This document shows positions 10,654 through 30,612 of a stretch of 35,406 bases of DNA, piece after piece (position 1 is the stretch's first letter; every line of letters begins with the position of its first letter). This DNA comes from a bacterium (GTDB lineage: Bacteria > Elusimicrobiota > Elusimicrobia > Elusimicrobiales > UBA9959). The stretch lies in the NCBI GenBank assembly GCA_021811405.1, contig JAJZOZ010000009.1, positions 1 to 35,406 on the forward strand. Reading direction: 5' to 3'. Position numbers and translations under genes: made by a program. The notes beneath the pieces were generated by a model. The model did not search any database and had not been told where the DNA came from. It worked only from the letters and a program-made list of their open reading frames with translations.

Positions 10654-11861
10654 ATCAGGCTCCAGAGACGCGCCAGGCCCAGCTTGGCCAGCAGCAGCAC
10701 GTTGCCGCCGGACAGCGCCGCGGTCACGGCGAGGCCGGCGCCGATCCAGAAAGCGAAGGGGCGCACGTGGAAGACCGGCACCCCCACGTCGTCCGGGGAA
10801 TCGGCCGGCCGGCTCCTTACGTATTCCTTCAGGCCGGCCAGCTGCTCCGGGGTCAGGCCGTCGCGGTACCGGTCGAAGCCGTATTTCTCGGCGAGTTCGG
10901 GCTCGGCCTCGTGCAGCTGCCGCAGGTATTCCTCCGAGATTATCATGCCGGGTGCCAGGCTGTCCAGGCAGACGCGCCGCGTGCCGGAAAGCTTCAGGTG
11001 GCGGTCGGCCACGGCGTACAGGACGCCCCTGAACACCATGAACTGCAGGCTCATCGCGAAGCCGTAAAGCATCAGCTTGGCGAGGCTCAGCGTCCCCGGG
11101 TCCAGCCTGGAGGCGACGGCCAGCGCCAGCAGCCCGCCCAGCAGGACTTTCGGGCCGGCCTTTTCCGCCAGCGCGCCGGCGCGCCCGCCGAAAGCGAACA
11201 TCAGGATGAAGAGGATATTGCTGTTCACCTGGAAGCCGCCCCTGTTCACCCCGTTCCAGGCGGAGACGAAGCTGAACAGCAGCGCGCTGAAGGAGAACGT
11301 CACCAGCCTCCCCGGCTCCTTCGCCAGCCCGGCGGCCGCGGCGCGGGCGCCGGCCCAGCCGCGCCCGAAGGCGCGTATCGTGCCCTCGGAGAACAGCTGG
11401 CCCAGTTGTTCCCTCGCCATCTGCCAGAAATACACGGCGGCCGGCGGAACGAAGATGTTCACCAGGAGCGACATCACCAGCGCCACCGGCGTCCAGCTGG
11501 CGTAGGAGATCACCACCGGCAGCGCCGCGCAGAGCAGCGCGAAGAGCTTGGCGTCGCCGGCCGGCCAGACCGCGGTCTTCCAGAGTATGACGCCGGCCAG
11601 CAGCCCGAGGGCCGCGTTCTCGAGCAGGACCAGGTAGTACCTGTAGACGAAGAAGGGCTCCCAGAAGAGGCCGTGCAGGCCGTACCTGATGCCGGCCACG
11701 CTGACGGCCAGCAGTACCGCGGCGGCGGCGAGGACGGCCAGCCCTCCCCGGAGCAGGCTCTTGTTGCGTATCTTGCCGCAGAGGTCGTCCTCCCTGACCA
11801 CCCCGAGCAGCAGGACGGTCAGGTAGAGCGTCAGCAGCAGGCTTACGATCGGCAGGTACAT
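10650..11861 (-). CDS. Polytopic membrane protein, A24 (type IV prepilin peptidase / GXGD aspartyl protease)-like
   Basis: TM1 followed by VREDDLCGKIRNKSLL (D...KI-x-N), then TM segments and WPAGDAKLFALLCAALP (GDxKL). Long C-terminal extension ending in a further hydrophobic segment. Confidence 0.7.
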   Translation of the reverse strand: MYLPIVSLLLTLYLTVLLLGVVREDDLCGKIRNKSLLRGGLAVLAAAAVLLAVSVAGIRYGLHGLFWEPFFVYRYYLVLLENAALGLLAGVILWKTAVWPAGDAKLFALLCAALPVVISYASWTPVALVMSLLVNIFVPPAAVYFWQMAREQLGQLFSEGTIRAFGRGWAGARAAAAGLAKEPGRLVTFSFSALLFSFVSAWNGVNRGGFQVNSNILFILMFAFGGRAGALAEKAGPKVLLGGLLALAVASRLDPGTLSLAKLMLYGFAMSLQFMVFRGVLYAVADRHLKLSGTRRVCLDSLAPGMIISEEYLRQLHEAEPELAEKYGFDRYRDGLTPEQLAGLKEYVRSRPADSPDDVGVPVFHVRPFAFWIGAGLAVTAALSGGNVLLLAKLGLARLWSLI

Positions 11862-13711: not shown

Positions 13712-14585
13712 GGAACTCCCCGTCCCCGTAGGTCTCTAGATATCTGGCGTACACGCCGCCGCAGACGGAAAGCTTCGCGCAGGCGCGGCAGCAGCGCAGC
13801 GCTTTTTTTTCGCGGTGGCCGTCCACGCAGCCGCCGCGGCGCTTCAGCATCTCGGTGCGCCGCATAGCGAACTCGCAGGCGCCCTCCGGCGCGCGCGGCA
13901 GGGCCGCGCAGAGCGGCACGTCCCAGAGGCGGAGGTTCTCCGGCCAGCCGCGCTCCGGGGCCAGCTCTTCCACCAGCCGGGAATACCTGACCGACAGCTT
14001 CTTCCAGTCCTTCAGCGCCCGGCCGAAAGGCAGCAGGCCGTGGAAGACGGCGTTCTTCAGCCCGCGGAGCGAGAGGAAGAAGTCCCTGAGCTCCGCCAGG
14101 CCGCCGATATTGAGCGCGTTCACGGTGGCGTTCACCGAGACCTGCACGCGGGAACCCTTGGGCCGCAGCGCCAGCAGGTTGGACAGGCCGCGCACGGTCT
14201 GCGCCCAGCTCCCTGGCACGCCGGTTATCGCGTCGTGCACTTCCGGCCTCGCCCCGTGCAGCGAGACGATGACCTCGCTGGCCCCGGAGGAGAGCAGTCT
14301 GGAGCAGTAATCCTTGTAGGCCAGCATCCTGCCGTTGGTTATCACGGAGACGCCGCTGCAGCCGAGCCGGGCCGCCTCCGCTATCAGGGCCGGCAGGTCC
14401 GGGTTCAGCGTGGGTTCGCCGGAGGTGAAGACCACCCGCCGGCCTTTCGCGGCGGCCGGCAGCCCCTTCACGGCGCCGCCGCCGCGGCGGCGGCCGCTCC
14501 AGGAAACGTCGGTGCAGAAGACGCAGTTGTTGTTGCACTCCCCGGAGGAGGCCGCGTACAGCGCTTTTCCGGCCGGTTTCGTCAT
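13701..14585 (-). CDS. Radical SAM protein with C-terminal auxiliary Cys motif
   Basis: MTKPAGKALYAASSGECNNNCVFCTD; VVFTSGEPTLNPDLPALI; SLHGARPEVHDAITGVPGSW; CRACAKLSVCGGVYARYLETYGDGEF. ATG at 14585. Confidence 0.9.
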   Translation of the reverse strand: MTKPAGKALYAASSGECNNNCVFCTDVSWSGRRRGGGAVKGLPAAAKGRRVVFTSGEPTLNPDLPALIAEAARLGCSGVSVITNGRMLAYKDYCSRLLSSGASEVIVSLHGARPEVHDAITGVPGSWAQTVRGLSNLLALRPKGSRVQVSVNATVNALNIGGLAELRDFFLSLRGLKNAVFHGLLPFGRALKDWKKLSVRYSRLVEELAPERGWPENLRLWDVPLCAALPRAPEGACEFAMRRTEMLKRRGGCVDGHREKKALRCCRACAKLSVCGGVYARYLETYGDGEFHAL

Positions 14586-15871
14586 GCGCTCCTCGCGGCG
14601 TTGAACATACGCTGCACCAGGTTCACCGCCCCGGCGAAGCCCAGGAAAGGCTCCGGCCGCAGCGCGTGGTAGCGGTAGGACGGGAAGCCCAGGTCCATGC
14701 CCGGCAGCCCCAGGAAGGCGGAGCGGCGGCCGACGCTGCTGGACACCAGCAGGTCGCAATGCCCGCCGGAGAACAGCCCCTCCACGGCCCGGGCGTAGGT
14801 CCCCGCCGGGAAATCCCTCAATACCGGCCTCCCCGGGAACGAGGCTTCGGCGGAGGCCCATTTCCCGCCGGAGCAGGTCAGGAAGACGCCGGCCACGCCC
14901 ATGCCCAGCTCCGCTGCGAAAGCGCAGAAGGCCCTGCCCAGGTACGGGTCCCCGGTGAAGCAGAGGCGCCTGCCGGCCAGCGCGCCGCCCACGGCAGCGC
15001 GCGCCGGCGAATGGGCGGCGGAGAGCTCGGCCGCTATCAGGGCGTCCGCCTTCGCCGCCGGCGTCCCGGCCGCGCAGGCCGCGGCCTTCAGCCAGGCGGC
15101 CGAGGCGGCCAGTCCCAGCGGCAGCTCCAGCTCGAGCAGTTTAGCCCCCGTCCTGCGCGCCAGCGTGGCGGCCGCCCCGCGCGCGTAAGGCAGCGAGATT
15201 ATCAGGCCGGCCTTCTCCGCGTTTTTCAAAGAGGCGTGATCTCCGCCGCCGGGCCACGCGCAGACCAGCTCCACGCCGGCCAGCGCCAGCATGCGCCGCA
15301 GCTCGGCTATGTTGCCGGTCTGGTCGCCCTCGTTGCGGTCCATGAAATGTCCTACTACGGCGGCCCTGCCGCGGCGCCCGGCGCCTTCTCTCAGCGGGAT
15401 GTCGGCGGCCAGCCTCTCCAGCGCCAGCGCGTAGCCGTCCAGGTAGTCGAGGTCCAGCGCGTTGGCGGCGACGCTCACCACCCTGGTGCCTTTTCGCCCG
15501 GTCAGGGAGGCCGCCAGCTTCCCGTAGTCCCGGCCGGTGAGCGTCATCACGGGCAGGGAGGAGAGCAGCACCGCGCCGGCGCGGCCGCACAGCGCGCCGG
15601 CCAGGGCCTCCGCGCCGGAGCTGTCGCCGGCTATTATCTCCCCGGAGTGGGAGCGGGTATGCAGCACGCGGCCGTCGCCGCGGCAGTCGAGCAGCGTGGA
15701 GAACAGGTCGTGCGAGCCGTGCACGCACTCGGCCTTGCGGGTCACGCAGTCCGTGCCGTCCACCACGGCGTAAGCGTCCGAGACGGCGTTGACCGCCAGG
15801 TAAAGGCCCGTCAGGAAGGACGGCGTGCAGCTCTCGCCCCGGTCCGGGGCTTCAGTTCTTTTTTCTGCCAT
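14582..15871 (-). CDS. Nitrogenase component 1-like protein (NifD/NifK/BchB/CfbD superfamily), set A
   Basis: Collinear with 27614..28885: PSFLTGLYLAVNAVSDAYAVVDGTDC / PAVYPYLLGAYACVNAVPGVTMLVDGPKC; VELVCAWPGGGDHASLKNAEKAGLIISLPYARGAAATLARRTG; GFPSYRYHALRPEPFLGFAGAVNLVQRMFNA. Overlaps the NifH-fusion CDS by 20 bp. Confidence 0.75.
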   Translation of the reverse strand: MAEKRTEAPDRGESCTPSFLTGLYLAVNAVSDAYAVVDGTDCVTRKAECVHGSHDLFSTLLDCRGDGRVLHTRSHSGEIIAGDSSGAEALAGALCGRAGAVLLSSLPVMTLTGRDYGKLAASLTGRKGTRVVSVAANALDLDYLDGYALALERLAADIPLREGAGRRGRAAVVGHFMDRNEGDQTGNIAELRRMLALAGVELVCAWPGGGDHASLKNAEKAGLIISLPYARGAAATLARRTGAKLLELELPLGLAASAAWLKAAACAAGTPAAKADALIAAELSAAHSPARAAVGGALAGRRLCFTGDPYLGRAFCAFAAELGMGVAGVFLTCSGGKWASAEASFPGRPVLRDFPAGTYARAVEGLFSGGHCDLLVSSSVGRRSAFLGLPGMDLGFPSYRYHALRPEPFLGFAGAVNLVQRMFNAARSA

Positions 15872-18071
15872 AGCTCGCGAAATCCGCCCCGCAGACCGCC
15901 AGGATGGTCTCCAGCGTCCTGCAGGCCCCGGCGAAGCCGGGCCTGAACATGTCCAGCGAGACCTGCGCCTTGCCGGCGTCGGAGACCCGGTAATCGCAGT
16001 TGAAATCGCTCCAGACGGCGGAGATGCCGGGCGCCGCCAGCCGGCGCCGCAGTTCGGCCTCGGTCGAGAAAGCCGAAGTCCTGATGCCGAGGGCGGAGAT
16101 CCGGCCCCGGAAACGGCCGAGGCTTTTCGCCTCGGGGGCGTAGACCAGCAGGTCCAGCCCGAAGCCGGCCTCGGCCAGGAAGCCGGCCGGCGGTATGCCG
16201 GCGGAGCGGGCCGGCACGAAGACCCGGTCCAGGTCGGCCTCGCCGGCCACGAAAGCTATCCTCTTGCCGGCAGCGCGCGCCTTCAGCGCGGCCCATTCGC
16301 CGGCCCTGGCCGCCATGGCCTTCCGCGCGGCTTCCCGAGCGGCCTTCTCCCGGCCCGCCAGCGCGGCGGCCTCCAGCAGCCAGGCCGCGGTGGCGGGGAA
16401 GCCGTAGGGCGAAGGCGGGCGCCTGAAAGACTTCTTCCAGCGCCCGCTGAAAGCGGCCTCCAGCCTGTCGTAGATGGACGAATCGCTCAGCAGGGCGCGG
16501 CCGGCCGACCTGAGGGCCTCCAGCGACTCCCCGTCGTATTCCGGCAGCATCCAGCGGGCCTTTACGCCCGCCGCGGCCAGTATGCCGTCCAGCTCGCGCA
16601 GCCCGGACCCGCCGTAGCCCAGCAGCAGCGCCGCGCCGGCGGGCAGGCGCGCGGGCTTCCGGCCGCCGCCCTTCGCGTACGCGCGCAGGAAGCCCATCAG
16701 TTCGCCGGGCACCGAGCAGCCGTCCAGGCAGGTGGAGCTGATCACCACCGGCACGCCGCTGGCCTTCTCGGCTTCCGCGGCCAGCTTCTGCACGTCCTCG
16801 CCCATCGCGTAGGGGACGCAGCCGTTCGTCATGAAGATGTAGTCGGGCCCGCCGCGGCCCAGGCCGGCGGCTATCTCGGCCACGCGGGAGCCGCTGCCCA
16901 TTATCACTTCCCGCGTGCCCAACGCGCTGGAGCTCCTGGAGGAGCCCTCCTCGCGGCGCAGCTCGCTGCCCGGCAGCAGACTGGCCGGGCCGCGCAGGAA
17001 AGGCACCTTCTCGCTCTCCTCCAGCCGCTCCTGGCCGTAGGCGCATTCCCTGTCCTCGTGGGCCAGGAAGGCCTGCCGGCCGGTATAGCGGACCAGGCCG
17101 GTGCCGGCGAAGACGCCCTCGGAGAAGAAGCGGCGCCAGCCGCCGCCGTCCGGCGGGGAGAGCTTGCGCGCGGGAGAGGAGACGGGGAAGGAGCCGGCCC
17201 CCGCCCCGGCCGCGGGGCAGGCCGCCGGAGCGGCGGGAGGCGGCGCCGCCGCCGCGGGCTTCTTCCGCCCCCGCCCGGAGAGCAGCGGCAGCAGTATCCT
17301 GCCGTCCACCGGGCGCGGCAGCCCGCGCGGCGGGTCGCCGGCGTCGAGGGCGGCCTTGATCTTCCTGACCGCGGCGGCGAAAGGCGAGCGCGGGGCCACG
17401 CGCACCACCGCGGCGCCGGCGGCCTCGGCCTCCCGGACGGCCGGGTCCGAAGGGCAGCGGGCCAGTATGCCCGCCTTGATCAGCGAGGCGAACTTGTCCA
17501 CCGCGCCTCCGCGGCCGCCGTCGGCCCCGTTGGCCACCAGCCCCATCAGGCCGGCGCCGCTGCCGGCGTGCACGGTCATGGCCCTGGCGATGTTGTTGGC
17601 GGCGTAAAGCGACATCAGGTCCTCTGAGACCACTATCAGCACCTTCCGCCCGAAACCTTTGCGCAGCGGCACCGCGAAGCCGCCGCAGACTATGTCGCCC
17701 AGCACGTCGAAGACCACCGCGTCGTAATCCGCGGCCACCTTCTCGCGGCCGGACTCCAGCAGCTCGAAGGTCTTCAGCAGGCCCATGCCGGCGCAGCCCT
17801 CTCCCGGCGCCGGGCCTCCGGCCTCCAGGCAGTCCACGCCCCTGCCGGTCCTGTAGATCAGGTCCTCCAGCGCCGGGCTGCCGCCGCGCAGCGCCTCCAC
17901 CACGGTGGGGATGCCCTCGCCGCCGGTCAGCAGCAGGGCGGAATCGCTCTTCGGGTCGCAGCCGACGTGCAGCACGCGCTTGCCCTCCAGCGCGTAGAGC
18001 TCGCTGAGGTTGGCGGCTATCGTGGACTTGCCTATGCCGCCCTTGCCGAGGATGACTATGCGCTCAGCCAT
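15852..18071 (-). CDS. NifH-like ATPase fused to nitrogenase component 1-like domain, set A
   Basis: N-terminus: VILGKGGIGKSTIAANLSELY (P-loop), GCDPKSDS, CAGMG, DVLGDIVCGGFAVPLR (both NifH cluster Cys), AANNIARAM. Ala/Pro-rich linker KKPAAAAPPPAAPAACPAAGAGAG. C-terminus: ECAYG, DYIFMTNGCVPYAMGEDVQKLAAEAEKASGVPVVISSTCLDG and a component-1-like tail. Confidence 0.85.
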   Translation of the reverse strand: MAERIVILGKGGIGKSTIAANLSELYALEGKRVLHVGCDPKSDSALLLTGGEGIPTVVEALRGGSPALEDLIYRTGRGVDCLEAGGPAPGEGCAGMGLLKTFELLESGREKVAADYDAVVFDVLGDIVCGGFAVPLRKGFGRKVLIVVSEDLMSLYAANNIARAMTVHAGSGAGLMGLVANGADGGRGGAVDKFASLIKAGILARCPSDPAVREAEAAGAAVVRVAPRSPFAAAVRKIKAALDAGDPPRGLPRPVDGRILLPLLSGRGRKKPAAAAPPPAAPAACPAAGAGAGSFPVSSPARKLSPPDGGGWRRFFSEGVFAGTGLVRYTGRQAFLAHEDRECAYGQERLEESEKVPFLRGPASLLPGSELRREEGSSRSSSALGTREVIMGSGSRVAEIAAGLGRGGPDYIFMTNGCVPYAMGEDVQKLAAEAEKASGVPVVISSTCLDGCSVPGELMGFLRAYAKGGGRKPARLPAGAALLLGYGGSGLRELDGILAAAGVKARWMLPEYDGESLEALRSAGRALLSDSSIYDRLEAAFSGRWKKSFRRPPSPYGFPATAAWLLEAAALAGREKAAREAARKAMAARAGEWAALKARAAGKRIAFVAGEADLDRVFVPARSAGIPPAGFLAEAGFGLDLLVYAPEAKSLGRFRGRISALGIRTSAFSTEAELRRRLAAPGISAVWSDFNCDYRVSDAGKAQVSLDMFRPGFAGACRTLETILAVCGADFASYGRKKN

Positions 18072-19089: not shown

Positions 19090-19799
19090 ATGTTGTACTT
19101 GACGTAGTTCGGCGCCCGGTCCTTGCGCACCCGGCTGTCCACGGCGCGCTGCTTGCGGGGCAGGGCCCCGTCGGGCCTGAGCGCGGCGTAGTCCACGTGG
19201 GTGTCCGTCTCGTTCTCCTTGAGGTCCCAGACCGCGCATTTCAGTCCCAGCGCCATCATGCCGGAGACGGTCTCCCGGATCCGGCCCTGGTTGGCCTTCA
19301 GGCGCAGCGTGTGCATCTCTATCTTCGTCCCGGGGAAGGACCTGATGTTCCCGATGGCCTTCAGCAGAGCGGCGTAGCTGCCCTTCTTCCTGGTCACGGC
19401 GTCGTGCGTCGCGGCGTCCGGCCCGTAGACCGGCAGCAGGAAGGCGTTGACCCCGGCCTTCACCAGGGTCTCCACCAGCCTGCGGCCGCGCAGCTTGACG
19501 CCGTTCGACATCAGCTCTATATAGGTGAACCCTTCCTTCACCCCCATCCGGACCACCGACTCCAGCAGCCAGGCCGGGGCCATCGTCGGCTCGTCGCCGC
19601 CGAGGCAGAGGCGCCTGACCCCGCGCCGGCGGAGCACCCGCATCAGCGCGCGGAAGCGGATCAGCACCTCGCGCCACCGCTCGTCGGTGAAGGCGAAGGC
19701 CGTCCTGTGCGGGTGCCTGTTGCGCTGGCAGAAGACGCAGTCGATGTCGCATCCGAAAGGGAACGCGAGCAGCAGCTTGTCCTCCTTCCTCGGGCTCAT
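19068..19799 (-). CDS. Short radical SAM protein lacking C-terminal Cys module
   Basis: LAFPFGCDIDCVFCQRNRHPH; LCLGGDEPTMAPAWLL; LLPVYGPDAATHDAVTRKKGSY; ends at 243 aa without CX2CX5C. Confidence 0.88.
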   Translation of the reverse strand: MSPRKEDKLLLAFPFGCDIDCVFCQRNRHPHRTAFAFTDERWREVLIRFRALMRVLRRRGVRRLCLGGDEPTMAPAWLLESVVRMGVKEGFTYIELMSNGVKLRGRRLVETLVKAGVNAFLLPVYGPDAATHDAVTRKKGSYAALLKAIGNIRSFPGTKIEMHTLRLKANQGRIRETVSGMMALGLKCAVWDLKENETDTHVDYAALRPDGALPRKQRAVDSRVRKDRAPNYVKYNICTERTY

Positions 19800-20782
19800 G
19801 CCGGCTTCGCCTCCCTCACCGGGCGGAAGAAGGCGGCGTGCCCGGGGAACGCCTCGAGGTACTTCCTGAATATGCCGCCGCAGGAACGCCGCAGCGGACA
19901 GGGGCGGCAGGTCTCCAGGTACACCCGCCGGCGCGTCGGGCGCAGCGAGACCGTCTCCTTCAGGCCGGCGCGCCCGCCGGGCAGCGCGGCCCGCTCCACG
20001 GTAAGCCGGGGGGAGTAATAGAGGTCGTTGGAAAGGTCGTAATGCCCGCCCAGCGCGCAGGCCGGCACGCCGAAGAAGCGCAGCGTCACGCCGAACAGCT
20101 CGGCCTGCTCCCGCAGCGCGCCTATGCGGGGGCCTATCGCGGTGAGGTCCGGCGCCAGCGCGGCGTAATCCGCGCAGGCCCCGCCTTCGGGGGCCGGGTT
20201 GGAGATCAGGTAATGCCTGACCAGTCCGGTGCCGGCGACGCGGCGCAGGATGTCCGAGACCCGCATGAAATTCTTCCTCATGGCGACGGTGTTAACCATC
20301 AGGAACGGCCGGCCTCGGCCCGCCTTGCCCAGGTTGTCGAGCGCGGCCATAACGTCGTCGAAGCTGCCTTTCCTGCCTGTCAACGCGTCGTGCAGCGCCG
20401 CGGTAGGGCCGTGGCAGGAGAGCATGGCCTCGTCCAGCAGCGGCGCGGCGCGCCGCGCGAAGGCCGGGTCCGCGAAAGCGGCCCCGTTGGTGGTGACGGC
20501 GGTCCTGTAGCCCAGGGCCCTGGCGGCGCCGATGGCGGCCGGAAGGGCGGCGCAGAGCGAAGGCTCGCCGCCGGTAAAGGTCACGTGGGAGAAGCCGGCC
20601 CGCCGCTTCTCCCTCAGGATGCCGGCTATCTCCGCGCCTGAAAGGTCCAGAGTCCGGAACCGCCGCAGCCTGTTGCGCTCGCTGCAGAACAGGCAGCTGT
20701 TCCCGCAGGTGTAGGAAACGTGTATCTCCAGCCGCTCCGGGGCCGCTCTCTTCGCGTCGGTCATCCGGACGTCCCCGCTCAT
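19796..20782 (-). CDS. Radical SAM protein with C-terminal auxiliary Cys motif
   Basis: IHVSYTCGNSCLFCSERN; VTFTGGEPSLCAALP; SCHGPTAALHDALTGRKGSF; CRPCPLRRSCGGIFRKYLEAF. ATGA overlap with the 20779 stop. Confidence 0.9.
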   Translation of the reverse strand: MSGDVRMTDAKRAAPERLEIHVSYTCGNSCLFCSERNRLRRFRTLDLSGAEIAGILREKRRAGFSHVTFTGGEPSLCAALPAAIGAARALGYRTAVTTNGAAFADPAFARRAAPLLDEAMLSCHGPTAALHDALTGRKGSFDDVMAALDNLGKAGRGRPFLMVNTVAMRKNFMRVSDILRRVAGTGLVRHYLISNPAPEGGACADYAALAPDLTAIGPRIGALREQAELFGVTLRFFGVPACALGGHYDLSNDLYYSPRLTVERAALPGGRAGLKETVSLRPTRRRVYLETCRPCPLRRSCGGIFRKYLEAFPGHAAFFRPVREAKPA

Positions 20783-21921
20783 GCGCGGCACCTCCCGGCG
20801 CGCACCGGCTTCAGCGCCGAAAAGCCCGCGGCCATCACGGTCTTTATCCGCGCGCCGCGGCAGGCGGCGGAGGCGCGGCACCTGCGGCAGGCCGAACCCT
20901 TCACGGTCAGCCTCTCGGCGATGAAGAACTCCGCCACCTTCATGATCCCGGCGCGGGGCGTTATCCTCTTCGCCCTCCGCCGGTCCTCCGGCAGGCAGGC
21001 CGGCGGAGGCACCGTCTTCAGAGAGCCCTCCGCCCGCAGCAGCTCCAGGTCCGAGCAGAACTGCGCCATCACGCAGGAGGCGCAGCGCGGCCCCCTGCAG
21101 TGCATCTCTTCGCCGGAGTACAGGAAGGCCTCGAGCGGCCGGCGCATGCCGCGCACCTCGTCCATCAGCTTGTCCGGGTGCTGGATGTAGCGCTCGTTGC
21201 CCTCCAGGACCGCGGCGGGGAACCTGTTGGTCCAGACGTGCGCGCCGACGGATTCGGAGAAGCGGAACACCTTTTCCAGCATCCCCTTCTTGGAAGCCGG
21301 GGAATAGGAGAGCCGCTTCCAGTTCTCCCAGGCGCGGCCGAAAGGTATCAGGTTCAGCAGGTCGTACTCGTCCACGCCCAGCCGGTGCAGCATGGCGACT
21401 ATGTCGTAGACGGAATCGGCGTTCAGCCTGTTCACCACGATGTCGCTGCTGACGATCAGGCCGGGCACCTTCTTGGCGTTGGCGACGGCCAGCATGGTCT
21501 GCGCGAACGCGCCCGGGACCCCGACCAGCGCGTCGTGCTGCGCGGCGGTGGCCCCGTGCACGGAAAAAGTGATCTCGGTCAGGCCGGACTTCACGGCGCG
21601 CCTCAGGAACGCCCCGTAGCAGAACATGCGCCCGTTGCTGATGGCCTGCACATGCGTGTAGCCCAGCTTCCGGGCCTTCGCCACTATGGCCGTGAACCCG
21701 GGATGTATAGTGGGCTCGCCGCCGCTCAGCACCACCCGGCGGCAGCCCTCGGCCCGCCCGCGCTTCAGGTCGGCCTCTATCTCGGCGAGCGGCAGGTGCT
21801 CGCCGCAGATGGAGTCCGCGTCGAGACAGAAGAGGCAGCGGTTGTTGCAGGCCCTGGTGAGCCTGACCCATTTGCGCTTTTCCGGGGCCGCAGCGGTCTT
21901 TTCCGTCATCGTGTCATCCAA
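20779..21921 (-). CDS. Radical SAM protein with extended Cys-rich C-terminus
   Basis: VRLTRACNNRCLFCLDADSICG; VVLSGGEPTIHPGFTAIV; SVHGATAAQHDALVGVPGAF; CRGPRCASCVMAQFCSD plus ACRRCRASAACRG. Confidence 0.9.
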   Translation of the reverse strand: MDDTMTEKTAAAPEKRKWVRLTRACNNRCLFCLDADSICGEHLPLAEIEADLKRGRAEGCRRVVLSGGEPTIHPGFTAIVAKARKLGYTHVQAISNGRMFCYGAFLRRAVKSGLTEITFSVHGATAAQHDALVGVPGAFAQTMLAVANAKKVPGLIVSSDIVVNRLNADSVYDIVAMLHRLGVDEYDLLNLIPFGRAWENWKRLSYSPASKKGMLEKVFRFSESVGAHVWTNRFPAAVLEGNERYIQHPDKLMDEVRGMRRPLEAFLYSGEEMHCRGPRCASCVMAQFCSDLELLRAEGSLKTVPPPACLPEDRRRAKRITPRAGIMKVAEFFIAERLTVKGSACRRCRASAACRGARIKTVMAAGFSALKPVRAGRCRA

Positions 21922-22861
21922 GAAGTATCTTCTCCGCCAGCCGGTCGGCGGCCAGCCCGCCCGCCACCGCCCCGGCCCCGAACAGCGCCTTCGCCATCCC
22001 GGCGTAATCCGGCGGGACCCGCGGCGGCCCGTCCAGGGCCTCCAGCCCGCCCGCCAGCATATGCGCCGCCTGCCCCGCGTTCTTCGCGGCCAGGACGAGG
22101 TTGGAGTGATAGCATCTCCCGTCCGTGTCCACGGTTATCCCCGGGTTGAACAGCGGCACCGGGCCCGAGCGCGAGGCGTTCTCTATGAGGACCGCCCCGG
22201 AATCCGCGAGCTCCCTGATGCGCCGCAGCGCGCCCGAGAGCCTGGAGAGGCCGGCCGGCGTCCAGGCGCGGTAGTAGGCCGGCAGCACGTTGACGCGCGG
22301 CGGCCTGCCGCCGGAGACGTCCAGCACCCGCCGCAGCACCTCCAGCGCCGAGCACGGGTCGCGCTCCGGCAGCAGCAGGTTCCAGATCAGGTTGGGCAGC
22401 CCGGAGAACCTTGCGCTGACGCTCACCGAGGTGTTCACGTTCACCTGCACCCCGGGCCTGGCGGAAAAAAAACGCACCTTGGCCGCGTCCAGCAGCAGGC
22501 CGTTGGTGCCCACTTCCACGCGGCCGCCGAAGCCGGCGGCCTCCAGCTGAGCTATCCCCGCTCGCACGAGCGCGAAGCGCAGCAGCGGCTCTCCGCCGAA
22601 AAACTTCACCGCGCCGCCCTCGGGGGCGGCGGCGCAGTACCGCTTTATAGCGCTTTTCAGGACCGCCCCGGGCATATCCGCCCGGCCGGTCGCGACGGGG
22701 CATTCGGGGCAGGCCGACTGGCAGCGCCGGGTAACTATAAGGGTCAGCTGCGGGGCCGGCGCGCCCCCGCGGCGGGCCGGCAGGGCCGGTTTACTGGCCT
22801 TTCTCCGCCTGTTTGCCCTTGGGCTGCTTGCTCTGCTGCTGTACGCCCATCCTCTTGTCAT
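21914..22861 (-). CDS. Divergent radical SAM protein
   Basis: LTLIVTRRCQSACPECPVATG; VKFFGGEPLLRFALV; VGTNGLLLD; FNPGITVDTDGRCYHSNLVLA. The only ATG overlaps the upstream gene by 71 bp, so the start is uncertain. Confidence 0.8.
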   Translation of the reverse strand: MTRGWAYSSRASSPRANRRRKASKPALPARRGGAPAPQLTLIVTRRCQSACPECPVATGRADMPGAVLKSAIKRYCAAAPEGGAVKFFGGEPLLRFALVRAGIAQLEAAGFGGRVEVGTNGLLLDAAKVRFFSARPGVQVNVNTSVSVSARFSGLPNLIWNLLLPERDPCSALEVLRRVLDVSGGRPPRVNVLPAYYRAWTPAGLSRLSGALRRIRELADSGAVLIENASRSGPVPLFNPGITVDTDGRCYHSNLVLAAKNAGQAAHMLAGGLEALDGPPRVPPDYAGMAKALFGAGAVAGGLAADRLAEKILLG

Positions 22862-23840
22862 CTTCAGCCTTCTGCTTTACCATGTCGGCCATTATCTTGT
22901 GCCGGAACGAGCTGGTGCAGTAGCCGGTGGCGAGTTTCTTGGCCAGAGGAGCGCAGACCGACGGGTCCCTGGACTCCAGCACGCGCGGCAGCCACTTGTC
23001 GTCGGGGATGGCGTCCCCTATCACCAGCGCGGCGCTGAGCTGGCATTCCTTCTTCCTGGGGCCGCTCAGCCTGCTGCAGGCCGCCCGCCCGCGTATGAAC
23101 AGGAAGTTGGATTCGCAGCCCGGGGGCAGGCCGAGCGACCTGCACTCCGGGGTCCGCTTCCGGGCTATGGAGTCGGAGATGACGCGGCAGAAGTCGGGGC
23201 TGGGCCGGCCGTCCCTGAACGCGTTGTTTATGAACTTCTCGCATTTGCCGTCGTTGATGGTCTTGCGCATCGCGGAGTACAGGAACTCGTAGTAGTCCGC
23301 GGCGTAGCAGACCCGGTTCAGGTTGTCCTGGACGCAGTCGAGCTGCCCGCCGCTTATCAGCCGGCAGACCCCGTAATCCAGGAACAGGTTGAGGATGGTA
23401 TCGTCCTCAGGCATGTTGCTGTTGGTGTTGAAGAAGAACTTGAAGTTCTTGTCGAAATGCCGGATGATCGCGTCCGGGTTGTCCGAGAACGCCTTCACGC
23501 AGTCGGCGTCGGCCGCGTTCACGGGGACGTCCTCCGGCTGGGAATAATACCCGCCGTAAGAGCCCTCGTACTGGCCGCCCTGCGGGATGTTGCTCCGGGT
23601 CTCCGTGGAGACCGGGCTGCTCAGCGCCGCGGCGTCCGGCGGCAGCGCCTGGCCGACCTCCTGCTGCGCCTCCGACGGCGAAGGGGGCGGGACCGGCTGC
23701 TCCAGCCCCATGTTGGCGGCCTTCTTGTCCGTCACCATCTTCAGGGCCAGCAGCACGCCCATCAGCGCCACCAGCAGCGCCACCAGCAGCTTCGGGGACA
23801 TCGCCCCGCGCCTGTATCCCTTCCTCATGGCGCTCACCAT
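22791..23840 (-). CDS. Membrane-anchored Cys-rich protein
   Basis: N-terminal TM (MSPKLLVALLVALMGVLLALKMV), Pro-rich stalk, Cys-rich domain ending LESRDPSVCAPLAKKLATGYC, similar to the C-terminus of 2880..4241. Confidence 0.78.
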   Translation of the reverse strand: MVSAMRKGYRRGAMSPKLLVALLVALMGVLLALKMVTDKKAANMGLEQPVPPPSPSEAQQEVGQALPPDAAALSSPVSTETRSNIPQGGQYEGSYGGYYSQPEDVPVNAADADCVKAFSDNPDAIIRHFDKNFKFFFNTNSNMPEDDTILNLFLDYGVCRLISGGQLDCVQDNLNRVCYAADYYEFLYSAMRKTINDGKCEKFINNAFRDGRPSPDFCRVISDSIARKRTPECRSLGLPPGCESNFLFIRGRAACSRLSGPRKKECQLSAALVIGDAIPDDKWLPRVLESRDPSVCAPLAKKLATGYCTSSFRHKIMADMVKQKAEDDKRMGVQQQSKQPKGKQAEKGQ

Positions 23841-24130
23841 TGCCCGTGGCTGCCGTGCGAGCCGTGGCTGCCGTGCGAGCCGTGGCTGCTGTGCGAGCCG
23901 TGCGAGCCGTGCGAGGCGTGGCTCACGTGGCCCGACGCGTTGCCGCTGCTGTGGAAGTAATTGGAATGGGTCGCCGCGTCGGCGTGCTCGGTCACGGCCC
24001 CGACGGCCGTGGCCACCAGGCCCAGGACGACCGCGGCCTTGACCACGTCGCTCTTGACTATCTTTCCTTCCTCGCTGGAGAGGAAGCGAGAAAGGTCCCC
24101 CGACAGCTTCTTTTTCTGTTTTCCAGCCAT
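23834..24130 (-). CDS. His-Xaa-Ser repeat peptide, HxsA-like putative RiPP precursor
   Basis: 98 aa: leader-like SGDLSRFLSSEEGKIVKSDVVKAAVVLGL and C-terminal HVSHASHGSHGSHSSHGSHGSHGSHGSHGQW. Adjacent to the HxsB-like maturase. Confidence 0.8.
   Translation of the reverse strand: MAGKQKKKLSGDLSRFLSSEEGKIVKSDVVKAAVVLGLVATAVGAVTEHADAATHSNYFHSSGNASGHVSHASHGSHGSHSSHGSHGSHGSHGSHGQW
23846..23930 (-). repeat. Tandem repeat encoding (His-Gly-Ser)n; 18-bp higher-order unit GTGGCTGCCGTGCGAGCC (+ strand), degrading to 9-bp units
   Basis: Perfect copies 23846-23863 and 23864-23881; third copy 23882-23899 with one mismatch; then GTGCGAGCC-type 9-mers. Confidence 0.85.
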
Positions 24131-24149
24131 AATTTGCCCCGTGTTCCCT

Positions 24150-25622
24150 CTAGACGTGTATCCCGGCCACTCCGGCGCTGCTGCCGGCCCAGGACTCGAA
24201 CAGCTTCTTGACTTTCGGCTCGCGCAGGCGCGCGAACAGGTAATCCATGACCCCGGTGTAGATCTCGCACCGGAAGTTGGGATGGTGCATGTACAGGTCG
24301 TTGTGCTCGGAATAGTTGAAGACCGGGCAGACGCCGCAGTAAGGCTTGTAGACGCAGGAGGAGCAGAGCGTCTGTATGTCCGTCACCGAGGCGGTGACCA
24401 CGCATTTCACGGTCGGGCTGGCCGCCAGGTCCGCGTAGGCCTCCTTCTTCAGGTCGCCCATGCAGAAGGCGTCGGTGCCTTCGGCGGCGAGCATGCGGCC
24501 CTCGTCGCAGGTGAACACCCTGCCGTCGTAGTCGTACGCGATCTGGCCTATCCCGGCCCCGCACGGCGACCGCAGGTCCATGAAGTTCGGGTCGGTATCG
24601 GTCAGGATCTTGCGCAGGAATATCCTGGCGGTGTGCTCGACCAGCGAGGCCTTCTTCTTCAGGTTCAGGTCTATGACGTAGTCCAGCGCCTTCGTGTAGA
24701 ACTCTATGTACTCCCGGGCGGTGTAGCCTATCCGGCCCCAGGCCTTCTTGGCCGCGCCGAACGGGTTGAGGAAGCGCAGGAAGATGGAGCGGGCGCCGAT
24801 GCGGACGTATTCGTCCACTATGTCCTTGTGCCGCCCGAGGGACTGCTTCGTCACGGTCAGCAGAGCGTCGGGCCCGTTCTTGCTCCGGGCCGTGCGCTTC
24901 TTTATGATCTTCCACCACTTCAGCACCTCGGCGTGGCTGCCGCCGCCGGTGGCTACGCGGTTCTTGTTGTGCAGGTCGGCCGGACCGTCCAGCGAGGTGC
25001 AGATGGCCACGTTGTGCTTGAGCAGGAAATCCAGGCGCTCCGCCGTCATGGCGGAAAGGTTGGTCACCAGGCTCAGGCCCACCTTCTTGTCGGTGGTCTT
25101 AAGGCGCTCGGCGGCCTCCTTCACCATGAACTCCAGCACCGGCCAGTTGAGCAGCGGCTCGCCGCCCTGGAACTCTATGGTGACCGACGGCGCCGGCGAC
25201 GCGAAGACGGAATCCAGCACCTTCAGCGCGGTCTCCTTCGTCATGTCCAGCCCGCGGCCGCCCTTCTTAGAAGAGGCGTGGCAGTAGACGCAGTCGTGGT
25301 TGCAGCGGCGGGTCAGCACCGCTATGTGCAGGGCCGGGCCGGAGAAGAGGAAGTGGTTCTTCTCGTGCCACCTGTCGGCCAGGCCGGCGAAGTCCATGTA
25401 GTCCCGCACGAAGCCCTTGCGGGAGAGGTCCTTGTACTCCGCGGACTTCTTGTCCAGCGTGCCGGCGGCCAGCTTCGAGAAGACCTTCTCCGTTAGAAAA
25501 GCGTACTCGCCTATGTCGTTGGTGACCAGGTATTCGTCCCCGGACCGCTTGAAGCGGAGGAAGCCGGTCCTCTGGGGGTTGAACTCAATTTCCTTTTTTT
25601 GTTTTCTTGGCATTTTTGGCAT
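24150..25622 (-). CDS. hxsB: His-Xaa-Ser system radical SAM maturase HxsB-like
   Basis: GFLRFKRSGDEYLVTNDIGEYAFLTEKVFSKL N-terminal domain; IAVLTRRCNHDCVYCHASSKKGG; VTIEFQGGEPLLNWPVLEF; TSLDGPADLHNKNR; SPASM Cys run CDEGR...CSSCVYKPYCGVCP. Confidence 0.85.
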   Translation of the reverse strand: MPKMPRKQKKEIEFNPQRTGFLRFKRSGDEYLVTNDIGEYAFLTEKVFSKLAAGTLDKKSAEYKDLSRKGFVRDYMDFAGLADRWHEKNHFLFSGPALHIAVLTRRCNHDCVYCHASSKKGGRGLDMTKETALKVLDSVFASPAPSVTIEFQGGEPLLNWPVLEFMVKEAAERLKTTDKKVGLSLVTNLSAMTAERLDFLLKHNVAICTSLDGPADLHNKNRVATGGGSHAEVLKWWKIIKKRTARSKNGPDALLTVTKQSLGRHKDIVDEYVRIGARSIFLRFLNPFGAAKKAWGRIGYTAREYIEFYTKALDYVIDLNLKKKASLVEHTARIFLRKILTDTDPNFMDLRSPCGAGIGQIAYDYDGRVFTCDEGRMLAAEGTDAFCMGDLKKEAYADLAASPTVKCVVTASVTDIQTLCSSCVYKPYCGVCPVFNYSEHNDLYMHHPNFRCEIYTGVMDYLFARLREPKVKKLFESWAGSSAGVAGIHV

Positions 25623-26049
25623 TTTTGCTCTTTTCCCACGGCACGGCTATGCCCAGAGAATCGTCCTTGTAGTCGCCGCTCTCCGCTTCCTTCAGCAGCT
25701 TCTCGATCTCCTTCTCCAGCTCCGCGTCCAGCACCGGCGCCGCGGCGGCCGGCTCGGCGGTCTTCGGCTGGGCCGAGAGCAGCGCCCTGACCACTATCCT
25801 TTCGCGCAGGACCTGGTTGACGGAGGAGACCTTCAGGCGGAAGGCGTGGTGCAGCAGCTCGTTGCGGAACTCGCCCTCCAGGTCGCGGCCCTCCGGGAAC
25901 TTGCCGTTCTTCGGCTCCAGCTCCACGGAGAGCGAACCGCCCTTGTCCTTGCCCAGCTTCACGTAGGCGTCCTTGGAGAACGTGTACGCCGCGGCGTAGA
26001 CGCTCTCAAGGGGATATACCGAAAGATCGATCTTAACCTGTTTTTTCAT
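25585..26049 (-). CDS. hxsD: His-Xaa-Ser system protein HxsD-like
   Basis: IDLSVYPLESVYAAAYTFSKDAYVKLGKDKGGSLSVELEPK...EFRNELLHHAFRLKVSSVNQVLRERIV matches the HxsD pattern; overlaps hxsB. Confidence 0.75.
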   Translation of the reverse strand: MKKQVKIDLSVYPLESVYAAAYTFSKDAYVKLGKDKGGSLSVELEPKNGKFPEGRDLEGEFRNELLHHAFRLKVSSVNQVLRERIVVRALLSAQPKTAEPAAAAPVLDAELEKEIEKLLKEAESGDYKDDSLGIAVPWEKSKNAKNAKKTKKGN

Positions 26050-26713: not shown

Positions 26714-26742
26714 AGTATAACAGAAAACCCCCCCCTTTTCAA
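26714..26742 (-). promoter_or_regulatory. Putative sigma70-like promoter TTGAAA - 17 bp - TATACT with a G8 run in the spacer
   Basis: Minus strand TTGAAA (26742-26737), spacer AGGGGGGGGTTTTCTGT, TATACT (26719-26714); about 80 bp upstream of the 26632 ATG and in the only sizeable gap above the 23-gene run. Confidence 0.6.
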
Positions 26743-26769: not shown

Positions 26770-27624
26770 TCATTTCGGGGCGCGGCCGCGGCCGGCCGCG
26801 CGCGCCCTGGCGGCGAGCTCCAGCTTGAACTTGGCGAAGACGGCGTCCGACATCGGCCTGGGCCTGGGGCAGGACTTCAGGGCCAGCATCCGGCCCACCG
26901 CGGCCCTGACGGCGGCGGTGAAAGGCGCTCCGGGGCTGAACGCCGGCACCGGCTCCCCGGCGAAGTCCGCCGAAACGACGGCCGGGTCGTCCGGGAGGGC
27001 GCCGATCACGCGCGAGTTTATGGCCGAGGAGAAGAGCGCGAGCGGGGCGTGGTCGGCCTTCCGCACGCGGTTGACTATCAGCCCCCCCAGCGTCACGCCG
27101 TTGGCGGAGTAGCGCGCCACGGCCTTGGCTATGTTGTTGGCCGCCAGCATCGACATCAGGTCCACCCCCAGCACTATGAAGGCCCTGTCCGCGAAGCCCA
27201 TGCGCATCGGGGCGGCGAAGCCGCCGCAGACCACGTCGCCGAGCACGTCGTAGACCACGGAGTCGTAGCCGCGCCGCCGCACCAGGCCGCTCTCGTTCAG
27301 GTAATCCAGCAGCAGCGAGACGCCGCGGCCGGCGCAGCCGGTGCCGGGTTCCGGGCCGCCGGCCTCGACGCAGTCTATCCCGTATTCGTTGGACATTATC
27401 AGCCTGTCCTCGGAGACCTTCCCGGCGCAGTACAGCTCGGAGTAGGTGACCACCGGACGGTGCCCCATCAGCCCGGATGAGGAATCCTTCTTCGGGTCGC
27501 AGCCCACCCGCAGCACCTTATGGCCCCGGGCCGCCAGCTCGCAGCACACGGCGGAAGATATCGTGGATTTCCCGATCCCGCCCTTGCCGAAGAACACCCA
27601 GCGCAAAGCTTTCTCAGACGACAT
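26770..27624 (-). CDS. NifH-like ATPase (stand-alone), set B
   Basis: FFGKGGIGKSTISSAVCCELA, GCDPKKDSSS, CAGRG, DVLGDVVCGGFAAPMR, AANNIAKAV. Confidence 0.9.
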   Translation of the reverse strand: MSSEKALRWVFFGKGGIGKSTISSAVCCELAARGHKVLRVGCDPKKDSSSGLMGHRPVVTYSELYCAGKVSEDRLIMSNEYGIDCVEAGGPEPGTGCAGRGVSLLLDYLNESGLVRRRGYDSVVYDVLGDVVCGGFAAPMRMGFADRAFIVLGVDLMSMLAANNIAKAVARYSANGVTLGGLIVNRVRKADHAPLALFSSAINSRVIGALPDDPAVVSADFAGEPVPAFSPGAPFTAAVRAAVGRMLALKSCPRPRPMSDAVFAKFKLELAARARAAGRGRAPK

Positions 27625-28885
27625 ATGGAGGGTCCTTTCTGGCGGCCAGCACCGTGTTGGCCGCCTGCTCTATGAACCGCAGAAAACCGGAATACCCCAG
27701 GAAAGGGCTCTCTTCCAGGCAGTGCCGGTTGTAGACCGGGAAGCCGAACTCCAGATAGGCGCCGCCGACGTAGACGAAGAACGGCGAGAGATTGGACGAG
27801 ATCAGCAGGCCGCACTTCCCCGGGAACGACTCCTTTATAAGGCGCTTGAGGCCGGCGGCGCTGCCGGCCCGCCCGCCGGCCGCGCGCGAAGTATGAACGA
27901 CCTCCGCCGGCTCCACCCCGATATCCGACAGCACGGAGCGCAGGCCCGGCTCCAGCAGGGGGTCGATCACGCAGACGGCCCTGCCGCCTGAGAGGACCGC
28001 GCTCACGAGGCGCGCGCTGCGCCCGTATACCCTGGCCCTGGCCTCCTTTATCACCGCCGCCATTTCCGCGCAGCGGCCGGCGCAGCGGGCCGCCGCCGCC
28101 AGGAAAGCCCCGGTGCCGGCGAGCCCGAAGGGCAACGGCGCCCCGACGAAAGGAACTCCCATCCGCCGGGCCAGAACTTCGGCGGCCTTCAGCCCGTGCG
28201 GCAGCCCGATCACGGCCGAGGCGCCCGCTAGCTCGCGGGCCGAGCTCCGCAGCGAGCCCCCGCCCGGCCACACCGCCAGCTCCACCCCGGCCGCGGCCGC
28301 CAGCGACTCCAGTTCCCTGACGTTGCCGAGGCAGTCGTATTCCCTGCGGTACATCGGATTGCCCACCACCGCCACCTTCCGGGGGCGGCGAGCGGCCCGC
28401 CCGAGCGGCATTATGCCCGCCAGCGCCGCCAGCGCGTCGCCGTAGCCCGCCAGCCAGTCTCCGGAAAGGGAGCTGCCTGGCAGCGCGGAGAACGGCACCC
28501 CGGAAGAGGAGAAGAGCGGCCCGAGCGCCCGGGCGTAATCCAGGCCGGCCACGGCCGCGAACGGCATGGGCGCCAGCAGGCACGCCTCCGGGGACGAGGT
28601 CTCCAGCATCCTCCCGGCGCGCGCGACGATCCCGCTTTCGGGGTCCGCGGTCATCCGCTCCGGAGAGGTGCCGGTGCAGACGACCCTGTTGGGGGCGGAA
28701 TGTCCGAGCAGGTCGGAGAACAGGTCCCCGCTGCCGTAAAGGTACTCCGCCTTAGCCTCCGCGCATTTCGGGCCGTCAACCAGCATCGTGACCCCGGGCA
28801 CGGCGTTGACGCAGGCGTAGGCGCCGAGCAGGTAGGGGTAAACCGCCGGCTGGGAAAAATCCCCGGTCTCCATGTTTTTTTTCAT
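27614..28885 (-). CDS. Nitrogenase component 1-like protein, set B
   Basis: Real start MKKNMETGDFSQ (ATG 28885). Collinear with 14582..15871: VDGPKC, ELAVWPGGGSLRSSARELAGASAVIGLPHGLKAAEVLARRMG, FGFPVYNRHCLEESPFLGYSGFLRFIEQAANTV. Confidence 0.75.
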   Translation of the reverse strand: MKKNMETGDFSQPAVYPYLLGAYACVNAVPGVTMLVDGPKCAEAKAEYLYGSGDLFSDLLGHSAPNRVVCTGTSPERMTADPESGIVARAGRMLETSSPEACLLAPMPFAAVAGLDYARALGPLFSSSGVPFSALPGSSLSGDWLAGYGDALAALAGIMPLGRAARRPRKVAVVGNPMYRREYDCLGNVRELESLAAAAGVELAVWPGGGSLRSSARELAGASAVIGLPHGLKAAEVLARRMGVPFVGAPLPFGLAGTGAFLAAAARCAGRCAEMAAVIKEARARVYGRSARLVSAVLSGGRAVCVIDPLLEPGLRSVLSDIGVEPAEVVHTSRAAGGRAGSAAGLKRLIKESFPGKCGLLISSNLSPFFVYVGGAYLEFGFPVYNRHCLEESPFLGYSGFLRFIEQAANTVLAARKDPPYVV

Positions 28886-30612
28886 CCGAACAGCCCCGCG
28901 GACAGCTTGCGCGCCAGGATCTCGTAGCCGGCCAGGGCCCCGGAAACGCCCTGCCCCACGAGCTCCAGGTCCAGCGGCATCCTGCCGCGCTCCAGCGCCC
29001 TGTCGTCGAAACGGTACCCGGAGAAGACGCCGCGCTGCCTGCCCGAGCCGAGCGCGGCGTAAAGCGCGTCCTCCGTGCCGAAAATGCGCGCGGAGGAACC
29101 GGGGAAAGCCGCCCTGAGCGCGCGGAACATCGCGGCGCGGATCCCGGGCAGCGGGGGGCGCCTGGCCAGCAGGAAGAAATCCAGGCCAAGCCCCGCGTCC
29201 TCGCGCAGGGCCCTCAGCCTGGCCGAAGTCTCCAGCGGGGCCTCCGCCATGTCCGCGCCGGACAGGAACGAGGCCGCGGTTATATCCGCGCGCAAGCGCG
29301 GATCGCGGCAGCCGAGGGCCTGATGCAGTTCGCCTGCTTCCAGTACTACGGCGGCGCGGAGGCCGCGGAACGCGCGCCTGACGGCCGCCAGCCGGGCGGC
29401 GGCGCCCGGGCAGAGCAGGTCCGCGGGCAAGGCGCGGGCCGCGCGGACGCCGGCCGCGGCGGCCAGGCGGGCGGCCAGGCGGGACATCTGCGCCGGGCCG
29501 AAACACTCGTCGCCCAGCAGCGGCGCGACCCCTCCCAGCACGGACCTGACGGCGCCCGCGTTGCGCGCCGACGAGAATACCACCGCCACGGCGCCGCGGC
29601 CGTAGGACGGGGCCAGCGCGCGGGAATACTCCGGCAGGCAGAACGAGTTCACCGAAAGCCCCGCCGCCGCGCAAAGCGCGCGCAGCTCGGCGCGGAACCC
29701 GTCGTCCCCGGCGTTGAAGAAGTCCACCGAGCGCGGGCGCCCGGCCCCGCGTTTTTTGGCGCGGTCCCCGGGAAGAAAAGGCTGTTCCGCCCGCGAGACC
29801 GGCGTGGTAAGGGTCACGAAAGCGGCGCCGGCGGCACGCAGCCCGTCGGCCACGCCGCGCGTGTCCACCCCGCAGACCTGCGCCAGGCAGCCGGAATCCA
29901 GCACCACGCCGGCCTTCCCGCCGGCGGCCTTGCCGGCGCGCCCGGCGGCCTCCGCCAGGCCGGCCCAGCCGGTGAGCATCTCGCCGTCGCCGAGAGGATA
30001 GAAGAAGGTCCGTCCGGCCCGGTACCCCAGGTATTCGCCGCGCAGCGCGCCGCGGGACCTGTCGTACGGGTCCAGCGCATCCCCGGCGGGGGCGGCGTAG
30101 GAAAGGCAGAACGGTTCTATGTGGTTGGCCACGTCGAACCAGCACTCCTCGTCGCCGATCAGCAGCGAGGCGCTCCGGGAAGCGTCTACCGCGGCGGACA
30201 GGGAACGCCCGGAAAGCGGCGGGACCGACAGGAAGCCCCGGAAGAAGGCCCCCGGCACCGGAGCGAAATCGCTCAGCTCCGCCGCGGCCGCGCCGAACCG
30301 CCCGCGGCGTTCGAACTCGCCCGAGATACGCCGGAAGAGTTCTACTCCGAAAAGCCGGAAATCCACGCTCCTGCCGGCGGACAGGTCGCCGGACTCGTGG
30401 AACAGGCGCTCTTTCAGGCGGGCGCCCCCGGCGTCGCGTTCCAGGAAGACCAGCTGCCTGATATCCCCGGTCCGGTCCAGGAGCAGCGAGCCGTCGGCCA
30501 GCTGCCTGACGCAGCACGGGGCGGCCTCCCCGCCCGGGAAGGGCGGGAATTCGCGGAGCAGCTTCGCCAGCCGCGCGGCCGGCAGGACCCGGCAGAAGAC
30601 CAGCCTACGCAT
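28882..30612 (-). CDS. Nitrogenase component 1-like protein with extra N-terminal region, set B
   Basis: Start MRRLVFCRVLP (ATG 30612). LLIGDEECWFDVANHIEPF, YPLGDGEMLTGWAGLAEAAGRA, GVVLDSGCLAQVCGVDTRGVADGLRAAGAAFVTLTTPV parallels the fusion-protein component-1 half. ATGA overlap with 28885. Confidence 0.7.
   Translation of the reverse strand: MRRLVFCRVLPAARLAKLLREFPPFPGGEAAPCCVRQLADGSLLLDRTGDIRQLVFLERDAGGARLKERLFHESGDLSAGRSVDFRLFGVELFRRISGEFERRGRFGAAAAELSDFAPVPGAFFRGFLSVPPLSGRSLSAAVDASRSASLLIGDEECWFDVANHIEPFCLSYAAPAGDALDPYDRSRGALRGEYLGYRAGRTFFYPLGDGEMLTGWAGLAEAAGRAGKAAGGKAGVVLDSGCLAQVCGVDTRGVADGLRAAGAAFVTLTTPVSRAEQPFLPGDRAKKRGAGRPRSVDFFNAGDDGFRAELRALCAAAGLSVNSFCLPEYSRALAPSYGRGAVAVVFSSARNAGAVRSVLGGVAPLLGDECFGPAQMSRLAARLAAAAGVRAARALPADLLCPGAAARLAAVRRAFRGLRAAVVLEAGELHQALGCRDPRLRADITAASFLSGADMAEAPLETSARLRALREDAGLGLDFFLLARRPPLPGIRAAMFRALRAAFPGSSARIFGTEDALYAALGSGRQRGVFSGYRFDDRALERGRMPLDLELVGQGVSGALAGYEILARKLSAGLFG

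Follow-up and report, generated by a model that had tools for sequence, protein, structure and literature searches.

What is the substrate of nitrogenase-like proteins whose genes lie among a large set of radical S-adenosylmethionine (SAM) enzyme genes and beside the gene for a histidine-rich peptide? This question is posed by a 35,406-nucleotide stretch of DNA (positions 1 to 35,406 of contig JAJZOZ010000009.1, assembly GCA_021811405.1; hereafter 'the window') from a high-GC (68%) genome of an Elusimicrobiota group. The window carries a run of approximately 27 genes on the minus strand, extending from about position 30612 down to 2880, whose ends mostly overlap or nearly touch. Among these are genes of the His-Xaa-Ser (Hxs) system, which is attributed to Haft and Basu in PMC9062424 and consists of HxsA, HxsB, HxsC and HxsD. 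On balance, we lean towards viewing the gene run as an expanded Hxs peptide-maturation operon, wherein an ATP-driven nitrogenase-like reductase would tailor a radical-SAM-modified HxsA4 peptide.

A sequence-only reading of the window had placed an HxsD-like protein, an HxsB-like maturase and a peptide ending in (HGS)n between positions 23834 and 26049. All three are indeed encoded there on the minus strand, and in a search with the Hxs profile models each scored above the cut-off curated by NCBI:

23834..24130, minus strand: HxsA4 precursor peptide of 98 amino acids, with a C-terminal (HGS)n tract ending in GQW (NF038313)
24150..25622, minus strand: HxsB radical SAM maturase (TIGR03978; Pfam Radical_SAM and a weak SPASM match)
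25585..26049, minus strand: HxsD (TIGR03976)

The assignment of HxsB is clear (490 bits versus a cut-off of 370; E 5e-147), that of HxsA4 is also secure by its cut-off (62.5 versus 55 bits; E 5e-17), and HxsD passes marginally (50.9 versus 50 bits; E 1.6e-13), with an alignment that ends in a conserved C-terminal DD(S/P)LGIA.PWE motif. The HxsA4 precursor includes 10 overlapping H-x-S units. When 14 relatives were aligned, the HxS core and the leader residues F16, E20 and E21 proved invariant, and the surrounding leader (..RFLSSEEGK..) is conserved as well. Compared with the closest relative, 22 of the 35 differing leader codons are synonymous (nonsynonymous divergence 0.18; synonymous divergence saturated). 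Given this leader conservation and the largely synonymous nature of the changes, HxsA4 is a real gene and not a chance repeat. Beyond Elusimicrobiota, the precursors share this type of core, terminate in GSW, and often carry a leader related to SEEGK.

Several variants of the peptide genes were also encountered. In genome G230, the HxsB reading frame is broken in two (L227:12693-14215) by a frameshift that is either real or assembly-derived, and a long HxsA4 of 34 HxS units adjoins it. A 273-amino-acid peptide adjoining HxsB elsewhere (L199:468-1289) has HxS units that are scattered and non-tandem, unlike the (HGS)n type. Two further loci (L201 and L202) encode HxsA-like peptides in which the usual HCSHASHGSH core is combined with an unrelated leader; no HxsB was found in their fetched flanks.

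The nitrogenase-like genes of the window form two sets, NifD1/NifK1/NifH1 (30612-26770) and a NifH-NifD fusion with NifK2 (18071-14582):

28882..30612, minus strand: NifD-like protein (NifD1), 576 amino acids; no Pfam or NCBIfam match, hhalign probability of 98.5 against an alignment of group VI NifD proteins
27614..28885, minus strand: NifK-like protein (NifK1); Pfam Oxidored_nitro (PF00148), E 1.4e-29, and aligned with relatives
26770..27624, minus strand: NifH-like ATPase (NifH1); TIGR01287 at 217 bits and NF033200 (CfbC) at 207 bits, all below cut-off
15852..18071, minus strand: NifH-NifD fusion, 739 amino acids; Pfam Fer4_NifH, E 1.7e-65, and Oxidored_nitro, E 1e-18
14582..15871, minus strand: NifK-like protein (NifK2); Pfam Oxidored_nitro, E 3.8e-36

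None of these proteins reaches any curated nif, bch or cfb cut-off (NifH1 scores 217 bits where 394 are needed), and NifB was absent from 39 of the 39 tested genomes carrying this type of NifK (the window genome and 38 others), whereas an Endomicrobia-type comparison genome (G292) gave a match. No cofactor of the iron-molybdenum (FeMo) type is therefore expected. The P-loop (GKGGIGKST) and the two cluster cysteines of NifH1 are intact. Two cysteine positions never vary among the 57 NifD sequences compared, and both are present in NifD1; in NifK, one cysteine and one aspartate are invariant. By analogy, these residues would fit a single bridging iron-sulfur cluster such as that of DPOR, and a NifK profile built for this type matches BchB/BchN chains in the PDB. 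We take the proteins to be group VI nitrogenase paralogues, an assignment made from scores, radical-SAM context and lineage. Meheust et al. 2020 (ISME J 14:2907) are said to have described a group VI paralogue together with a radical-SAM suite in Elusimicrobia. Whether group VI proteins hold an active-site cluster is presented as a matter of debate in a 2025 paper, PMC12176620.

The distribution of group VI NifK (NifK-VI) provides the main evidence that the reductases and the peptide system belong together. With NifK2 as the query of the searches for NifK relatives and of both NifK-VI counts, NifK-VI was found in 46 and HxsB in 92 of 340 Elusimicrobiota genomes, and 45 of the 46 NifK-VI genomes also carry HxsB. 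A phylum sample of 282 genomes around G340 (Myxococcota) gave a similar picture, with HxsB in 98 genomes, NifK-VI in 36, and HxsB in 34 of these 36. The corresponding Fisher p values, 5e-29 for Elusimicrobiota and 1e-15 for the G340 sample, are uncorrected for relatedness. A NifK scan of GTDB contigs added 17 genomes from outside Elusimicrobiota (Myxococcota, Bradymonadales, Bdellovibrio, Spirochaetes and others), all 17 of which contain HxsB (16 above the cut-off) and 16 of which contain an HxsA4-type peptide. The converse dependence is absent, as 47 of the 92 Elusimicrobiota genomes with HxsB and 64 of the 98 in the G340 sample are without NifK-VI. This one-way relationship, in which Nif goes with Hxs while more than half of the HxsB genomes do without NifK-VI, suggests that the reductase is an optional add-on to the Hxs pathway. 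That the reductases are almost never found without the peptide system also suggests that the peptide, rather than nitrogen or a heme-like cofactor, is their target. The tracking of Hxs by group VI reductases across phyla is a new observation when set against Meheust et al. 2020, as known via PMC11257099 and PMC9391474.

In 22 of the 46 Elusimicrobiota genomes, NifK and HxsB share a contig and are no more than 49 kb apart; in G230, G231, G354 and locus L141 the distance is a few kilobases. The linkage of Hxs genes to NifH-like genes that the sequence-only reading had singled out as a new context recurs across phyla. The same reading had named relatives with radical SAM and Nif genes lacking any Hxs peptide as evidence against itself, and such relatives proved to be few (G224, G225, G585 and G508); in the first three, the contigs that bear the Nif genes end close to them.

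Downstream of the genes for HxsA4, HxsB and HxsD, approximately 13 further radical SAM genes follow on the minus strand, mostly with overlapping ends and with one of them encoding a double protein. Their products were scored against 18950 NCBIfam models:

21914..22861, minus strand: radical SAM a, weakly similar to HxsB and nif11-type maturases
20779..21921, minus strand: radical SAM b, HxsC-like; top matches HxsC4 (94 bits) and HxsC (88 bits), below cut-off
19796..20764, minus strand: radical SAM c, HxsC-like; HxsC4 80 bits, HxsC 64 bits
19068..19799, minus strand: radical SAM d, HxsC-like; HxsC4 56 bits, HxsC 51 bits
18064..19089, minus strand: radical SAM e, HxsC-like; HxsC4 59 bits
13701..14585, minus strand: radical SAM f, HxsC-like; HxsC4 130 bits
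12797..13711, minus strand: radical SAM g, HxsC-like; HxsC 99 bits, HxsC4 97 bits
11865..12794, minus strand: radical SAM h, HxsC-like; HxsC4 87 bits
9703..10653, minus strand: radical SAM i, HxsC-like; HxsC4 122 bits, HxsC 105 bits
8852..9706, minus strand: radical SAM j; MoaA 73 bits, HxsC 55 bits (MoaA/PqqE first, HxsC fourth)
7093..8859, minus strand: radical SAM k, double protein with two tandem Radical_SAM stretches in Pfam
6066..7088, minus strand: radical SAM l, peptide-maturase-like; PapB family 142 bits, HxsB 111 bits, below cut-off
4268..5140, minus strand: radical SAM m, HxsC-like; HxsC4 93 bits

For nearly all members of this array, a, j and l being the exceptions, the top model is HxsC4 or HxsC at a score below the cut-off, and for this reason the array has the appearance of an expanded set of diverged HxsC-like enzymes in an Hxs-type system that has no canonical HxsC. 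Of the HxsC-like members, radical SAM i is retained most widely, with matches of 340-576 bits in many islands, whether or not these contain Nif; radical SAM h is kept in many Nif-bearing islands (300-570 bits in relatives). The sequence-only reading had proposed the peptide as a possible substrate of the array; this idea is strengthened by the HxsC-like character of the enzymes, while the modification itself is a prediction.

Such an array could be explained in other ways. According to a published proposal, the radical SAM enzymes and the Nif-like enzymes would build a modified tetrapyrrole cofactor, for which the His-rich Hxs peptide might serve as carrier or metal donor. Group VI genes are cited as putative or potentially tetrapyrrole-modifying in PMC11257099 and PMC9391474, and the Nif relatives DPOR, COR and CfbCD do act on tetrapyrroles. 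A HemN/HutW-like radical SAM gene also lies near the gene run, and the window genome encodes both HemB and HemC. Contamination is unsupported as a source of these two genes, whose contig (C104) matches the window in composition (GC 0.67; tetranucleotide correlation 0.94). The test of the proposal consequently rests on relatives. Searches for HemB and HemC covered 54 NifK-VI genomes and 14 control genomes; they performed as they should in the controls, 11 of which gave matches. Among the 46 NifK-VI Elusimicrobiota, 17 showed no HemB match and no HemC beyond one 24-bit fragment (in G136). These negative carriers include G119, G120 and G121 (completeness 100%), G152 (99%) and the relative with a locus syntenic to the window, G156 (98%); a Spirochaetes genome (G353) and a Bdellovibrio-labelled genome (G355) likewise lack HemB and HemC. 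By this evidence, such carriers appear unable to make tetrapyrroles de novo, although they may import them, and an endogenous tetrapyrrole therefore cannot be the general substrate. G119 even has several HemN-like genes. A salvaged tetrapyrrole would be needed for the proposal to hold in such carriers. The suggestion of the sequence-only reading that the His-rich tail might bind a tetrapyrrole is weakened by these absences, and we regard the tetrapyrrole proposal as quite improbable.

It is also conceivable, if unlikely in our estimation, that the Hxs genes and the Nif and radical SAM genes represent two distinct pathways, carried side by side in radical-SAM-rich islands and without a common substrate. 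These islands are large and differ from one another, they may or may not include Nif, and NifK and HxsB reside on different contigs in many draft genomes. However, the association spans several phyla and persists where the genes are not seen linked, and hitch-hiking would not maintain it under those circumstances; many of the Nif-adjacent radical SAM genes are moreover HxsC-like. That the Nif-like proteins fix nitrogen or carry a FeMo or L-type cluster seems barely credible. The intact P-loop and cluster cysteines of NifH speak for it, but they are set against the absence of NifB from all 39 genomes noted above, a NifH score far below the nifH cut-off, and the conservation of just three cysteines in NifD and NifK together.

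Some observations weigh against a peptide-tailoring role for the reductases. Their co-occurrence with Hxs is no proof that they touch the peptide. NifK and HxsB do not share a contig in 24 of the 46 Elusimicrobiota genomes, many of which are fragmented metagenome-assembled genomes; HxsA4 and HxsB often lie near contig ends, perhaps because of the repeat. No HxsB was detected in carriers G224, G225, G508 and G585. The contig of G585 is 6.4 kb long, the Nif contig of G224 (23.4 kb) ends in HemN-like genes, that of G225 ends beside NifH, and the NifK match of G508 is weak (159 bits). No array member scores above the cut-off for HxsC (TIGR03977; best 105 versus 267.9 bits) or HxsC4 (NF038332; best 130 versus 500 bits), which rules out a canonical HxsC in the array. 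Finally, a peptide-recognition role for HxsD as a winged-helix domain is unsupported by its fold, because the AlphaFold model (pLDDT 75, four sequences) predicts a strand-helix-strand-strand-long helix order that is not a winged helix, and no PDB match was obtained below E 0.001.

With these points in mind, a tentative pathway for the expanded Hxs operon can be outlined. HxsA4 would be the ribosomal precursor, in which a leader is joined to a core of His-Xaa-Ser repeats, and the core would be modified by HxsB, HxsD and the diverged HxsC-like radical SAM enzymes. One or both group VI complexes (NifH with NifDK-like partners), using ATP and low-potential electrons, might then reduce a group built on the peptide by the radical SAM enzymes, much as DPOR reduces a ring double bond. 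The leader may be cut off by a membrane aspartyl protease of the prepilin-peptidase type (10650-11861). The gene identities, the one-way co-occurrence, the missing hem genes and NifB, and the conserved cluster ligands are computational findings; we infer that the peptide is the substrate, in which order the steps run, what kind of reduction takes place and what the protease does. The specific claim that a nitrogenase-like, ATP-dependent reductase acts on a ribosomal, radical-SAM-modified peptide, for example by reducing an unsaturated or ring group on His-Xaa-Ser residues, is one we hold to be possible, with the chances falling a little short of even.

The reductions catalysed by nitrogenase-like enzymes are demanding and run at low potential; the substrates of the proven members are N2, tetrapyrroles, F430 precursors or small sulfur compounds. 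With a peptide as substrate, the superfamily would gain a new branch and peptide tailoring a new class of enzyme, and the orphan group VI paralogues would acquire a testable function. To our knowledge, Hxs peptides have long been recognized and are chemically unexplained, and our literature search on HxsA and HxsC found no biochemical study; the partner set described here would limit the possible modification. The near-complete genomes lacking hem genes offer a direct test ground for the current tetrapyrrole proposal.

Among known systems, the locus resembles the Hxs system in its HxsA4-type precursor (leader and HxS repeats) and in the scores of HxsB and HxsD, and differs from it by having about 10 diverged HxsC-like proteins in place of a canonical HxsC, two NifHDK-like complexes, an A24-like membrane protease and a fibre-like protein. 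With the published group VI paralogue of Elusimicrobia it has in common NifH/D/K-like genes of that type; it departs in that the radical SAM suite goes together with an Hxs peptide in several phyla, and in that the published tetrapyrrole proposal fails for carriers negative for HemB and HemC. Like DPOR and COR (BchLNB, BchXYZ) and CfbCD, the complexes pair a NifH-like ATPase with a NifDK-like partner that has few conserved cysteines; unlike them, they score below every curated cut-off, occur in some carriers that have no tetrapyrrole pathway, and are linked to a peptide system. A nitrogenase-like enzyme is also paired with a radical SAM enzyme in Rhodobacter, where a nitrogen-fixation-like (NFL) system participates in isethionate assimilation (PMC11423573). 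That system differs in serving sulfonate metabolism with one radical SAM enzyme, and the available portion of PMC11423573 names no peptide precursor.

The remaining features of the window concern the organization of the gene run and its other products:

26714..26742, minus strand: promoter-like site (TTGAAA-17-TATACT, its second hexamer preceded by TG), located in the 137-bp gap that leads into the Hxs segment
26069..26632, minus strand: fibre-like protein, with TYYPAPYG and GNVGVGT..KLHV motifs in its sequence
22791..23840, minus strand: Cys-rich protein with an N-terminal hydrophobic segment; no NCBIfam or Pfam match
10650..11861, minus strand: membrane protein with prepilin-peptidase-like (A24) motifs, identified by motif conservation; no Pfam match
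5137..6066, minus strand: protein of 309 amino acids; no Pfam match
2880..4241, minus strand: HEAT-repeat protein, the last of the gene run; Pfam HEAT_2, E 3e-37

The sequence-only reading had placed the Hxs genes at the head of the operon. For the run as a whole this does not hold, since the NifD/K/H-like genes lie upstream (30612-26770), and yet the Hxs genes may begin a downstream unit. The 137-bp gap with its promoter-like site (26742-26714) immediately precedes the genes for the fibre-like protein and HxsD, and the syntenic relative G156 has no NifH/D/K-like match upstream of its fibre-like gene; on these grounds, the downstream unit may start in the order fibre-like protein, HxsD, HxsB, HxsA4. 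The site has 10 of 12 consensus matches, and the consensus scan gave 2 such sites in the region against 0.7 expected, which is not functional evidence. Relatives of the fibre-like protein adjoin HxsD/HxsB in many islands. A classification of this gene as a pilin was rejected, as its motifs are fibre-like and no Pfam match was obtained.

In the candidate protease, Asp25, Asn33, Gly102, Asp103 and Lys105 are invariant in 21 of 21 relatives. It is a membrane protein with the two putative catalytic aspartates of an A24 peptidase, D25 and a second within a GD.K motif (WPAGDAK). Its 21 relatives occur in islands with and without Nif.

The HemN/HutW/STM4012-like radical SAM gene (1321-2883) lies on the plus strand, opposite to the gene run, and the islands of G119 and G223 each contain several HemN-like copies, with G119 lacking HemB and HemC. 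The Cys-rich protein (22791-23840) is kept in G156 (homologue at 232 bits) and shares a weak Cys-rich similarity with the C-terminal part of the HEAT protein (2880-4241; BLASTP E 0.015).

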